Notes under the pieces: model-generated | What the model was told of the DNA's origin: nothing | The model's database searches: none | Seen by the model: the letters and a program-made list of their open reading frames with translations, nothing else | Origin: Anabaena sp. UHCC 0187 | GTDB lineage: Bacteria > Cyanobacteriota > Cyanobacteriia > Cyanobacteriales > Nostocaceae | Assembly (NCBI RefSeq): GCF_009712035.1 | Contig: NZ_VILB01000013.1 | Coordinates: 29,563-85,747 of the forward strand | Direction: 5' to 3' | Length of the DNA stretch: 56,185 nt | Made by a program: the position numbers and the translations under genes | Part shown: positions 51,503 to 54,909 of the stretch, piece after piece | How the letters are laid out: every line of letters begins with the position of its first letter | How positions within the stretch are numbered: the first letter of the stretch is position 1

Positions 51503-51850
51503 ATGTCTTCTGTACCTCTCACACTGAATTTAGTAGAAGGTTCTGTTTCTGTCAGTTTTTCACCCCAAGCAGCACAAGAATTAAAAGCAGCAATAGATGA
51601 ATTAATGAAAAGTCTCAAAGTGGTTGCTAGTAAAACTCCAGGTACTGGTAAAGTCAGTCCCCAACCCTCTTTAGAGTATCGTTACACTGGGGATGTATTT
51701 ATAGAAATATTCTGTAATCCTAATATTTGGCCTACTCCCTTTGCGGCTAAAGTTTTGTTAACAATTCGCAATATGGGGATTCGGTTGACGACAGAAGCGG
51801 AACTTACTCGCATTATTGAGGATCTTAATCAGTATTTAGAGCAGTTTTAA
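51503..51850 (+). CDS. Small conserved-looking soluble protein, unknown function
   Basis: A 115-residue protein with no recognised domain. It begins with strands (VPLTLNLVEGSVSVSFS), then a helix (QAAQELKAAIDELMKSL), strands (LEYRYTGDVFIEIFCNP) and a C-terminal helix (AELTRIIEDLNQYLEQF). No signal or membrane segment is present. A tandem 91-bp hairpin repeat starts at its stop codon. Confidence 0.7.
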   Translation: MSSVPLTLNLVEGSVSVSFSPQAAQELKAAIDELMKSLKVVASKTPGTGKVSPQPSLEYRYTGDVFIEIFCNPNIWPTPFAAKVLLTIRNMGIRLTTEAELTRIIEDLNQYLEQF

Positions 51851-52030
51851 ATTATCGTCTAAACTATGATTTTTGTGATTTTGATGATTTTTATAATGAA
51901 TCCCTCATTTTCATCAAAATCATCCTAGAAATCACAGTTAAATTATCGTCTAAACTATGATTTTTGTGATTTTGATGATTTTTATGATGAATCCTTCATC
52001 TTCATCAAAATAATCCTACAAATCATAGTT
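51849..52030. repeat. Two tandem 91-bp hairpin-forming units
   Basis: Units at 51849-51939 and 51940-52030 both start AAATTATCGTCTAAACTATG and are about 90% identical. Each is an imperfect long palindrome: GTGATTTTGATGATTTTTAT pairs with a later ATGA-rich arm (TTTTCATCAAAAT). They follow directly after the 115-residue gene. Confidence 0.85.
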
Positions 52031-52129
52031 CAGACGTTTTTTCGTTTCCATACTCTATATGGGAATGAATTCTAGAAGCCTCTACCTATGGCTTACGTCA
52101 CGTTGCGCTATCAATAACAGTAGAGACAG

Positions 52130-52160
52130 AGCCTCTGAATAGCATTTCCAGTCAGAGGCT
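52130..52160. repeat. 9-bp stem-loop of the AGCCTCTGA family
   Basis: AGCCTCTGA and TCAGAGGCT with a 13-nt loop (ATAGCATTTCCAG), then GGGAACGAG. This is a common dispersed cyanobacterial repeat. The surrounding 52031-52200 has no gene. Confidence 0.7.
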
Positions 52161-52224
52161 GGGAACGAGATTAAACTTGTCACGAAATTTGGGTGGAGGT
52201 ATTGTTGTTATCCTCTATTTTGCT

Positions 52225-52257
52225 TTGACTTGTGTTATTCCATGTTCTATGTATACT
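52225..52257 (+). promoter_or_regulatory. Possible promoter of the small-protein/ABC cluster
   Basis: TTGACT at 52225 and TATACT at 52252 (5/6 -10) with a long 21-nt spacer; a poorer TATGTA gives 17 nt. It is about 50 nt before the first gene of the cluster. Tentative. Confidence 0.35.
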
Positions 52258-52306
52258 ATGTAATAGGATTTGAGACATTGACAGACAGAACCAAACGAAA
52301 CTAAGT

Positions 52307-52552
52307 ATGGATTTTGGCAATATGAGTAACTCAGTATATAAAGTATTTGAAGAAATCGAGTTTAAAGCGAAACTACTGGCTCAATACTGGAATAATTTTC
52401 ACACGGAAATATCCCAGCACCTACCAGAGAGTTATCAGCCAGAAATTCAAGAACTATCCAACAACGATGAAGTGGATGATTTATTAGCATTTACAGAACA
52501 GTTGGTAGCTTATTTTCTAATTACTTTAACTATGGATTTTTTCAATGATTGA
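52307..52552 (+). CDS. Small acidic helical protein, first gene of the cluster
   Basis: An 81-residue protein, unrecognised. It is mainly helical and acidic (FEEIEFKAKLLAQYWNNFH; NNDEVDDLLAFTEQL), ending with the hydrophobic FLITLTMDFF. The ATG at 52307 or 52322 may be the start; neither has a strong ribosome site. Its last 8 nt overlap the next gene (ATGATTGA), so the two are translationally coupled. It could be a cytoplasmic partner, immunity or chaperone-like protein for the membrane proteins that follow, but this is a guess from context. Confidence 0.65.
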   Translation: MDFGNMSNSVYKVFEEIEFKAKLLAQYWNNFHTEISQHLPESYQPEIQELSNNDEVDDLLAFTEQLVAYFLITLTMDFFND

Positions 52553-52955
52553 ATCATTTAAACCCAAACTACAATCTTCATTATCTAATGTATTATTGGT
52601 ATTTTTTATATGCTGGACAATATTTATGGGAGTGACAACATGGAAGATTCAGCATTCATGTCAGCCAATGATTAGACAATTAGATATATCTAAGTCTAAT
52701 CAATGTATTCCAGATCCTATACCCAGCCCTAGACCAACGCCTACACCCAGTCCTATACCCAGTCCTATACCAACGCCTACACCCAGTCCCAGTCCTACAC
52801 CAAACCCTATACCGGATGTTGTAGGAGTAGCTGTTGGTGGAGCAGCAATGACTGGTTTAGCAATAGTACAAGCTCCCGTTTTAGCTGTGGTAGCAGCAGG
52901 TATAGGAATTTGGTTTCTAGTCAGAACTACTATTAAATTAATAAATGGTAGTTGA
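52545..52955 (+). CDS. Membrane-anchored small protein with Pro-rich linker and hydrophobic Gly/Ala tail
   Basis: A 136-residue protein in four parts: a membrane helix (~15-31, NVLLVFFICWTIFMGV); a short extracytoplasmic part with Cys39 and Cys54; a proline linker (~57-88) of PTPSPIPSP type; and a hydrophobic C-terminus from ~91, with GVAVGGAAMTGLAIVQAP and VAAGIGIWFLV. The C-terminal part aligns with that of the next gene (shared pattern A-x-T-x5-(I/V)-x-AP-x6-G-x-x-IW), so they are paralogues. The composition resembles hydrophobic bacteriocins. No known family. Overlapping start with the previous gene. Confidence 0.75.
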   Translation: MIESFKPKLQSSLSNVLLVFFICWTIFMGVTTWKIQHSCQPMIRQLDISKSNQCIPDPIPSPRPTPTPSPIPSPIPTPTPSPSPTPNPIPDVVGVAVGGAAMTGLAIVQAPVLAVVAAGIGIWFLVRTTIKLINGS

Positions 52956-52998
52956 AGCGATTTTCTAATTTAGATTTTGCCAATAGGAGTTGAATAAA

Positions 52999-53328
52999 AT
53001 GGAATCACCACAAGATCAAGAAACATCAATAATTAATTCTACTGTTGTCAAAATTGTTGTTGTTGGAGTATTAGTTATAATTTTAATAGCAGTATTTTTT
53101 ATTGCAACTAAAGGTAATGATATTTCTTTTTGCTTATTTAGTCCCAATTGTAATAAGCCAGTAGTAATAAATCCTCCGCCAGATCCAGTTGGTTTTGATG
53201 ATTTACTGGCAGCAGGAGCAGGTGTAACAACAGCAGCAGTATTAACAGCAATTATTGATGCTCCTATAACTGTTGCCGTAGGAGTTGGAATTGCTATTTG
53301 GTGGATTGTCAACGCTTTACTTCATTAA
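52999..53328 (+). CDS. Second paralogous membrane-anchored small protein
   Basis: A 109-residue protein: N-terminal cytoplasmic ~15 residues, a membrane helix (~17-36, VVKIVVVGVLVIILIAVFFI), two Cys (45 and 51, SFCLFSPNC), a short proline stretch (NPPPDP) and a hydrophobic C-terminus (LLAAGAGVTTAAVLTAI, then DAPITVAVGVGIAIWWIV). It shares layout and tail motif with the preceding protein but with a much shorter linker. The start is the ATG at 52999, which has AGGAG 9 nt upstream; an in-frame TTG at 52990 abuts the ribosome site. The ABC transporter follows after 32 nt. Confidence 0.75.
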   Translation: MESPQDQETSIINSTVVKIVVVGVLVIILIAVFFIATKGNDISFCLFSPNCNKPVVINPPPDPVGFDDLLAAGAGVTTAAVLTAIIDAPITVAVGVGIAIWWIVNALLH

Positions 53329-53360
53329 ATATTTAGAAAAAATTCATTCATTATTAGGTT

Positions 53361-54806
53361 ATGAAAATCATAGAACTGAATAATATTTCCAAGTCATTTG
53401 GACGAGGCTCAGACGCGAAATCAGTATTAAATGGAATTAGTCTCACAATTAGCCAGGGAGAGTTTGTAGTTTTACGCGGAGTGAATGGTTCTGGTAAAAC
53501 TACTTTACTCAATATTATTTTGGGTCTTCTGAAGCCTGATAGTGGAGAAGCAAAGCTTTTGGGAAGATCACCACAAGAAGCTGAGTCGAAAGCTAGTATT
53601 GGTGTAGTTCTGCAAAAAGTAAATGTTCCTAAACATCTCAAGGTTAAAGAATTAGTTAACCTGTTCCGCAGTTATTATCCAAATTCACTTTCTGTTGAAG
53701 AAATCCTGAATAAAGTTAATTTAGAAGGTAAACATGATGCCTGGGGTTATAAATTATCTGGAGGAGAAGAACAACGACTTTATTTTGCTCTTGCTTTAGC
53801 TGGTAATCCCAAACTATTAATTTTGGATGAACCAACCAGAAATTTAGATGAAGAAGGTTGTACGGATTTCTGGCATCAGGTCAAAAGCTGCGTTCAGGAG
53901 GGTATCACTATTCTTATGGTTACTAATAACCAATCTGATTGGCAAGAGCTTAATCATCTTGCTACTCGCTCTATCACTCTCAAAGATGGACAAATTAGTG
54001 AAGATAAGGATATTAACAAAAGGGAAGAATTAGCAAAATCATCAGAAATTAATGACAATAAAATTGATTGTTTACCCGGTAAAATCAATACTTTTAAGTC
54101 AATGCTGCTCAAACAGATTTGGGCTGAATCTCTACAGTTTGTGCGTAATCCTGGCTACTTGCTAGGTATTATATTATTTTCTTGCTTGATTGTATTTTTC
54201 CCACCTGATCAAACTTTAGGTAAATTAGGATTAATATTTTTTGCAGGAATTAATTTATTAACTTTTGCTATTGAGAGATTAGGAAAAATAATAGCATCTG
54301 AAAGAATCGAAGGTTGGCTAAAGCTGCTGAGAATTACTCCTCTTCCTCCTGTAATATATTTAAGTGCCAAAATTATTATGGCTCTGAGCATTTTAACAGT
54401 TAATCTGACTATTGTTCTTTCATTGGGCGCTTGGAAAATAGGAGTTGAGCAAAGTGTAGGACAATGGTTAATTATGTTTTTCAGTTTAATAATGGGAATA
54501 ATTCCCTTTGCTATCTTTGGTTTAGCTCTTGGCTATTTGGTTAAACCAAAAAGTATTGATTCTATAGCGGCTCTATCTATTCCTATAGCTTTATTTAGCT
54601 GCGGTCTACCTCTACCTGTCCCTAAATTTGTACAAGATTTAATTTCATTTTCCCCTTTTTATCACTATGGCCAATTAGCAATGTGGTCAGCCGCGTTAGA
54701 TTACGACCAGCATCTTTGGTTACATCTACTATGGTTATTATGGGTTGGATCTATATTTAGTTTGGTAGCACTTTGGGCATATAGACGTGACCAAGTGCTT
54801 CAGTAA
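53361..54806 (+). CDS. ABC exporter: fused ATPase and ABC-2-like permease
   Basis: A 481-residue protein combining an ATP-binding domain (1-~215) and a permease with six helices (~255-475). Walker A GVNGSGKT (40-47), signature LSGGE (132-136), Walker B LLILDEP (152-158). The switch His is replaced: the H-loop reads VTNN (Asn189). Between the domains is a charged linker. Such fusions usually export drugs or peptides; the neighbouring small hydrophobic proteins are likely substrates or partners. AGG lies just before the ATG. It ends the four-gene set; an STRR-bearing gap follows. Confidence 0.88.
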   Translation: MKIIELNNISKSFGRGSDAKSVLNGISLTISQGEFVVLRGVNGSGKTTLLNIILGLLKPDSGEAKLLGRSPQEAESKASIGVVLQKVNVPKHLKVKELVNLFRSYYPNSLSVEEILNKVNLEGKHDAWGYKLSGGEEQRLYFALALAGNPKLLILDEPTRNLDEEGCTDFWHQVKSCVQEGITILMVTNNQSDWQELNHLATRSITLKDGQISEDKDINKREELAKSSEINDNKIDCLPGKINTFKSMLLKQIWAESLQFVRNPGYLLGIILFSCLIVFFPPDQTLGKLGLIFFAGINLLTFAIERLGKIIASERIEGWLKLLRITPLPPVIYLSAKIIMALSILTVNLTIVLSLGAWKIGVEQSVGQWLIMFFSLIMGIIPFAIFGLALGYLVKPKSIDSIAALSIPIALFSCGLPLPVPKFVQDLISFSPFYHYGQLAMWSAALDYDQHLWLHLLWLLWVGSIFSLVALWAYRRDQVLQ

Positions 54807-54854
54807 GATTGAGGAGGTCAACTAGTATTTGGAAAAGTTTTAAATTAATTTACA

Positions 54855-54909
54855 GCCAACAGTTAAGTTAACAGTTAACAATCAACAATTACCAATCACC
54901 AACTACCAA
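54855..54909. repeat. STRR array (AACAGTTA, then ACCAATC)
   Basis: Runs of AACAGTTAAGTTAACAGTTAAC followed by AATTACCAATCACCAACTACC separate the ABC exporter gene from the FIST gene. Confidence 0.8.

Follow-up and report, generated by a model that had tools for sequence, protein, structure and literature searches.

The window analyzed here is a stretch of 56,185 nucleotides from Anabaena sp. UHCC 0187 (contig C4 of a 5.1-Mb genome). At its right end, on the plus strand, it carries a module of three genes: A, encoding a variable membrane protein, B, encoding a constant small one, and a gene for an ATP-binding cassette (ABC) ATPase fused to an ABC-2 type permease. An earlier note, made from the sequence alone, had described four same-strand open reading frames including two related hydrophobic proteins and an exporter. 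The frames are present as described, and that observation was partly confirmed in the form of the three-gene module, which is absent from the libraries searched. We give about even chances to the reading that the products form an ABC-driven envelope complex, with B as constant and A as variable subunit, that is probably used in biological conflict. Physical association of A, B and the ABC protein, their topology, the disulfides, any substrate and the role in conflict are what we infer. The features of the module are as follows.

52545-52955, + strand: gene A, variable protein of 136 amino acids (aa)
52650-52670, + strand: motif QHSCQPM of A, right after the first transmembrane helix (TM1), with C39 at 52659-52661 and its partner C54 at 52704-52706
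52707-52820, + strand: linker of A, Pro-rich, with a 12-bp tandem repeat; in relatives its place is taken by different linkers, by Big_2 domains or by repeats
52824-52943, + strand: C-terminal hydrophobic domain of A, putative hairpin by homology with B; profile match 3e-14
52999-53328, + strand: gene B, constant small protein of 109 aa; alternative start TTG 52990
53131-53151, + strand: motif C-L-F-S-P-N-C of B, after TM1, with Cys pair C45/C51
53194-53322, + strand: predicted C-terminal helical hairpin of B, helices 66-86 and 90-108 (AlphaFold2, low confidence, mean pLDDT 69)
53361-54806, + strand: N-terminal ABC ATPase fused to ABC-2 type permease, with 6 hydrophobic segments; Asn instead of His in the H-loop

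The start of B is most likely ATG 52999 rather than TTG 52990, judging from the starts of other B proteins.

Linkage of the small proteins to the ABC gene

Searches with the ABC protein used a threshold of E ≤ 1e-50 in 388 genomes of the order and of E ≤ 1e-45 in a phylum sample of 386. The protein was found patchily, in 36 of the order genomes (24 of 149 genera) and in 8 genomes of the phylum sample, seven of which were already known and one of which (G520) lies outside the order. Named relatives occur in Hyella patelloides, an Oscillatoriales isolate, Nostoc and Aulosira. We examined 42 loci: that of the window, 38 of the order, that of G520 and two on plasmids, pNPM4 of Nostoc sp. N6 and a plasmid of Aulosira laxa NIES-50. 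The locus of G157 is outside this set, and its B was seen in a genome-wide profile search only.

The C-terminal domain of B adjoins the ABC gene at 41 of the 42 loci; the remaining one (L065) is cut by a contig end and was excluded from the B count. Over the same 388 genomes, a B profile gave matches in 36, and 35 of these are common to the ABC set. The exceptions are G073, with a match of 2e-4 that contains two stop codons, and G323, whose contig ends inside the ABC gene; G323 is also the only genome in which an ABC gene (E ≤ 1e-50) was found without B. Note that the A and B profiles were built from the module loci, so that finding A and B there is partly by construction and the informative part of the B search is its silence in other genomes. 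The earlier note had tied the hydrophobic pair to the exporter and proposed a survey of neighborhoods for constant linkage; this is the pattern found, and a widespread ABC gene lacking the small proteins was not seen among the 388 genomes.

Gene A is less regular. With a profile of 21 A N-termini (again partly by construction), A was found upstream of B at 35 of the 42 loci, and a divergent A at two more (L066 and L068). Its C-terminal domain was detected at 27 of the 42, in L118 by the B profile only (6e-4), and remained undetected in the A of six (L036, L048, L049, L050, L051 and L052); the A of L050 has a hydrophobic tail of its own. Two A genes are broken: that of L044 is split over frames, and in L057, from a g41 genome, a transposase-like gene lies between the N-terminal part and the C-terminal domain. 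The A of L067 lies at a contig edge, L065 is the cut locus, and the profile search of the 42 loci found no A at L037, L038 and L042. At L042 (L042:7265-8707), where B is present, a stop splits the ABC gene between ATPase and permease.

Paralogy and predicted topology of A and B

Both window proteins begin with a hydrophobic helix. In A it is followed by C39 and C54, a Pro linker on the 12-bp tandem repeat and a Gly/Ala-rich C-terminal domain; in B, by C45/C51, a short linker and a C-terminal domain related to that of A. Alignments of 21 A and 30 B proteins give the same plan for the families. In A proteins a transmembrane (TM) helix precedes Q-x-S, which in most cases runs on into C-x-P-[MIL]. 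A second Cys comes next, and a segment that varies separates it from a tail rich in Gly/Ala; this tail has a central Pro and, in many proteins, W-F close to its end. Q36, S38 and P41 are invariant in the 21 aligned proteins. B proteins have a TM helix, C-x4-6-C, a short loop and an A-like tail.

By BLASTP the two window proteins alone match at E 5e-5 over 26 residues. As families, the tails were compared with hhalign using 41 B proteins and 26 of 37 A proteins (11 without a usable tail were excluded), giving a probability of 96%, E 4.4e-9 and a score of 41.1. Among the controls, 60 column shuffles scored 8.4 on average and 15.8 at most, the reversed profile 11.3, and five permease segments no more than 10.6. 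Searched against whole genomes, the B profile matched the A tail too, in G000, G183, G249, G200 and G361. Judged by these comparisons, the C-terminal hydrophobic domains of A and B are paralogous, as expected from the common plan that the earlier note had seen in the pair. The AP-x6-G-x-x-IW pattern proposed there is present in the two window proteins and is looser across the families, where VP, IP, NP or the like commonly form the turn and, in B, another residue frequently stands in place of the W.

The cysteines after TM1 point to disulfides outside the cytoplasm because they are paired. In the 37 A frames their number is always even: 0 in 5, 2 in 17, 4 in 6 and 6 in 9. Frames were counted as they stand, including the broken L044 and L057, and L040 and L069 were counted by hand. 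The Cys of Q-x-x-C is present in 30 of the 37, each time with a second Cys 6-18 residues on; six of the seven A proteins lacking it have no Cys there, and L036 has two. A close pair is found in 33 of 41 B proteins, and four have no Cys after TM1. In four others (L036, L037, L038 and L042) the Cys after TM1 pairs with one at the extreme C-terminus, which would place the C-terminus and the loop after TM1 on the same side, as a hairpin requires. All of these counts come from related sequences and should not be considered independent. For B, the AlphaFold2 model (helices 12-38, 66-86 and 90-108) fits such a hairpin.

The ABC protein

The ABC protein matches PF00005 at 109 bits. Its permease half has six hydrophobic segments and matches PF01061 by a small margin (28.0 bits; cut-off 26.9), and it falls short of PF12698 (28.7 bits; cut-off 31.6). 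All 41 ABC proteins have an intact Walker A and an intact DEPT in Walker B, and the signature is present in variant forms. At the position of the H-loop His, 21 of the 41 (the window's group included) have Asn, 18 have His and 2 another residue, L042 having been entered in the motif table with its first open frame only. A domain scan found no peptidase domain. The fusion described in the earlier note stands on the two Pfam matches and the six segments, and the protein has the sequence characters of an ABC-2 type exporter: an ATPase with Walker A/B and signature, and a permease above cut-off.

Such a protein could be an ordinary exporter of a lipid, glycan or small molecule, assisted by A and B as accessory subunits, in which case the defence genes near some loci would merely share residence on genomic islands. 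We consider this rather unlikely. The ABC-2 permease domain, the intact Walker motifs and a weak likeness of the permease to DrrB efflux proteins (TIGR00025; E between 7e-6 and 5e-3, well short of the cut-off) speak for it. Matches to NCBIfam, among the 25 of 202 ABC matches listed and for the permease alone, are below cut-offs. Known ABC-2 exporters with an N-terminal ATPase share with the module protein the ABC_tran and ABC2_membrane domains, the six segments and the Walker motifs, but the module protein is tied to two small paralogous proteins and has Asn in the H-loop in 21 of 41 cases. Exchange in place of the outer part of A, described below, is also unexpected for a plain transport subunit, and no recurrent biosynthetic neighbor of the module was found.

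Comparison with known families and systems

B has only weak library matches (best E 0.002), which are unshared or below cut-off, and in the Protein Data Bank (PDB) there was no match for B at E ≤ 1 or for A at E ≤ 0.1. In these libraries no sign was found that the small proteins belong to a known family, an outcome that the earlier note had named as refuting its reading. For B, we judged the following to be chance matches of hydrophobic helices: DUF6050 and DUF6785 (0.0033), LiaI-LiaF-like TM1 (3 of 30 members, best 0.0051), AA_permease_C (5 of 30, best 0.0095) and PHROG 16346 (2 of 30, best 0.0023). Weak Pfam and NCBIfam matches of the window A to PARP, SslE, internalin and TonB rest on the Pro-rich repeat and were discarded. 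No PADLOC model matched the proteins scanned (A and B of the window, B of L040 and L060, and A of L050), and the A of L040 matched PD-T4-6 at 1.6e-5, over its linker. Matches of the ABC protein to members of PADLOC systems (best mad3, 1e-23) are confined to the ATPase part and were rejected. Literature searches listed no paper whose title or opening abstract lines describe such a module.

Hydrophobic Gly/Ala-rich tails next to an exporter had led the earlier note to compare them with hydrophobic or circular bacteriocins; in this reading A and B would be a bacteriocin pair, two-peptide or circular in type, exported by a transporter of their own. Circular and two-peptide bacteriocin loci do share with the module small helices of this kind next to an ABC gene. 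Among the proteins scanned, neither Pfam nor NCBIfam gave a match to a bacteriocin family, and no solved bacteriocin was matched. No cyclase, SpoIIM/DUF95, peptidase or modification gene was found among the neighbor clusters of at least 3 of the 42 loci (several with short flanks; the Pfam tally of neighbors is read from the 25 families listed of 91). A and B also differ from such peptides in having their own TM anchor and Cys pairs, and A in its long, exchangeable linker, which can carry Ig-like domains. We consider this proposal very improbable, and the searches made do not support it.

An N-terminal TM helix followed by a Pro-rich or Big_2 stretch also recalls the TonB-like and Ig-array spacers of envelope proteins. 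Unlike these, A ends in a second hydrophobic domain, and the window A matches NCBIfam TonB over its Pro-rich stretch only (E 0.0023).

Exchange of the putative outer segment of A

The linker of A is estimated at 22-353 residues where the C-terminal domain was detected, and at 402 in L050. Big_2 domains are found in four A proteins (four each in L050 and L056, two in L039, one in L061), and the window has the Pro-rich stretch. Within genus g41, L061 and L071 are 96% identical in the ABC protein, 98% in B, 80% in the tail of A and 31% in its N-terminal part, and their linkers have 98 and 350 residues, respectively. DNA identity ends just inside the start of A and resumes in the linker, with sharp limits. 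The pairs L058/L059, L061/L059 and L063/L059 show the same pattern; L058 and L061 differ in the A linker only, and L058 and L063 align throughout. By these alignments, the N-terminus and linker of A have been exchanged in place between some close relatives. Distances of the ABC protein correlate with those of B at r 0.86 and with those of the A N-terminus at 0.65 (36 loci); note that linked genes would do likewise. Because the linker is replaced wholesale in some pairs, A fits better as a membrane-anchored displayed protein than as a processed peptide.

Variation of this kind could also mark a polymorphic toxin, in which the tail of A would insert into target membranes while the paralogue B and the ABC protein export A and protect the producer. 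A varies and is truncated, broken or lost (27 of 42 with a tail) while B (41 of 42) and the ABC gene are kept; its segments are exchanged, and conflict genes and plasmids occur among its settings. We nevertheless regard a toxin as decidedly unlikely. The A genes found keep the N-terminal TM helix and the QxS motif (by construction of the search), no processing site is seen in A, and none of the A proteins scanned matched a toxin family.

Mobility of the module

In G240, a genome of the same genus, the two sequences that flank the module are conserved at 93% and 97% identity; 466 bases separate them, against 2849 in the window:

52040-54888, strand not assigned: 2849-base stretch of the window, replaced in G240 by 466 bases with no match anywhere in the window

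The 466 bases at this module-free site (L114:1729-2194) hold a short frame, presumably a broken Uma2-type gene. The module was either gained in the lineage of the window or lost in G240, and gain appears likelier because none of the 12 other genomes of the genus among the 388 has the ABC protein at E ≤ 1e-50. Taken with the patchy distribution and the plasmid copies, this points to a mobile module that moves horizontally.

Neighboring genes and the question of conflict

All-against-all comparison of 535 neighboring open reading frames gave, besides A, B and the ABC gene, one cluster present in more than two genera. It consists of NTPases of ~460 aa, found at 8 loci in 4 genera, whose genes point away from the module. 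All four that were scanned have an NB-ARC domain, and the one at L037 also has a sub-cut-off match to sigma-70 region 4. From genome-wide counts of PF00931, 0.39 such loci would be expected within 3 kb among 41, against the 8 observed; by genus the figures are 4 of 25 against 0.25 expected (P 1.3e-4), and both comparisons are post hoc. They cover 41 loci of 37 genomes, with plasmids excluded and with G323 and G157 included despite cut or unfetched flanks. With the NTPase of G200 as query, the module-adjacent copies are the best matches in G037, G060 and G193 (out of 34-55 relatives each), which is not so in G190, G239, G302 and G320. A divergent NTPase of this type would fit a regulator of the module, since bacterial STAND NTPases, according to PMC7159879, have been studied mainly as transcription regulators.

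Other defence-related genes adjoin single loci. In G147 a DISARM locus encloses the module, DrmD/DrmMI lying on one side and DrmA/DrmB on the other, and the ABC gene is 33 bases from DrmA; in G249 it is preceded by a DpdE/DrmD-like helicase gene and a DrmMI/type IIG-like gene; in the Aulosira plasmid DrmD-like and type IIG-like genes diverge from it, and in pNPM4 a NACHT gene does. An XisH gene adjoins the module at L040 (L040:1350-15024), where it lies inside a DISARM locus. DrmMI-like matches occur in 26 of the 37 carrier genomes, so the DISARM-type contacts may be chance or reflect shared islands, which is what an ordinary exporter would lead one to expect. NB-ARC/STAND and DISARM systems, as described in PMC7159879 and in the PADLOC models, adjoin the module at part of the loci and differ from it in that, among the A and B proteins scanned, only the linker of the L040 A (PD-T4-6) matches a PADLOC model.

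These contacts also allow a more specific proposal, namely a mobile, polymorphic device for defence or recognition at the envelope, in which the outer segment of A would be swapped like a recognition domain. The membrane hairpins of A and B, energized or gated by the ABC protein, would perturb or seal the membrane when a phage or competitor is recognized, and STAND NTPases and DISARM would be partners in some genomes. We hold this to be unlikely in so specific a form. As for a conflict role in general as opposed to a housekeeping role, conflict is likelier, for part of the loci only, because of mobility, allelic exchange and the company of conflict genes. An ordinary exporter is at odds with the finding that NB-ARC genes are the sole cluster in more than two genera.

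A working model and the evidence against it

In the reading that we favor, A, B and the ABC protein would form one complex in the cytoplasmic membrane. The ABC half-transporter, an ATPase with a six-TM permease and presumably a dimer, would be the motor. B would be its obligatory small subunit, with the N-terminus inside, one TM helix and a disulfide-closed loop outside, beyond which a tight hairpin of helices would pack within the membrane, the permease being its probable contact. A would follow the same plan, except that its outside loop would be an exchangeable displayed segment of roughly 20-400 residues, and A and B would dock by their tails. The outer segment of A may contact something at the envelope while the ABC/B core acts on the membrane or exports, and the module as a whole would be mobile and probably deployed in conflict, either phage defence or competition. 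An envelope complex, one of the possibilities raised in the earlier note, may be right: linkage and paralogy agree with it, and the complex itself we infer.

Several observations weigh against this model. A does not seem always to be needed, since it was not found at 3 loci, its tail was undetected at 6 and it is broken at 2. The AlphaFold model of A has a helix at 7-36 and a single C-terminal helix at 110-133 with no hairpin, so that the hairpin in A is drawn from homology with B; confidence is low for both models (mean pLDDT 69 for B and 68 for A). In L056 and L070, B has a third Cys inside the hairpin tail. The NB-ARC association was noticed post hoc, and the genera may share it by descent. 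Housekeeping or otherwise ordinary neighbors are found at many loci, as an ordinary exporter would predict, and five g41 genomes have the module in one common chromosomal housekeeping context. By the scans made, no known conflict gene lies in the window from 48 kb on.

With the module, two orphan families of membrane proteins gain a fixed ABC partner and a testable topology. Their evolutionary pattern is distinctive, combining a constant core, an exchangeable outer part, mobility and, at part of the loci, the company of defence genes. If the role in conflict is true, this would be an ABC-based membrane device absent from the defence library searched.

ORF1 and the surroundings of the module

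52307-52552, + strand: ORF1, 81 aa, acidic, outside the module

ORF1, whose last 8 bases overlap the start of A, was the first gene of the four-gene unit proposed in the earlier note. Its first ~51 residues have matches in 22 further genomes among 195 of the order searched, and 14 of the 24 other matches sit in frames of 758-858 codons; in loci L104-L108 it is a P-loop protein whose start is matched. In G191, which belongs to a different genus within the family, an 805-codon GTPase frame has at its 5' end 141 bp that are 87% identical to window positions 52318-52458. This GTPase family may be dynamin-like. The start of ORF1 is, by its sequence, the 5' remnant of a GTPase gene. Because of this match to a GTPase N-terminus, and because neither ORF1 nor the G191 GTPase was found in the 41 other module loci (several with short flanks), ORF1 was excluded from the module and a four-gene operon was rejected in favor of three genes. 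The remainder of ORF1 did not match the C-termini of three such GTPases, and its tail was rejected as a GTPase C-terminus.

Upstream of the module lie a gene of 115 aa and a dispersed repeat, and downstream a FIST-domain gene. The repeat, with inverted arms, occupies window positions 51845-52041 as two copies of ~91 bp, directly at the upstream junction; matching it against the genome gave 21 rows, two of them being this very place, once for each strand. At L045:5632-9827 and L046:2543-6709, loci from two genera that belong to one family, three genes come after the ABC gene, of ~735 aa, ~325 aa (P-loop, GVGKTT) and ~320 aa; the first gap is under 30 bases, and the first two pairs of genes look alike between the loci.

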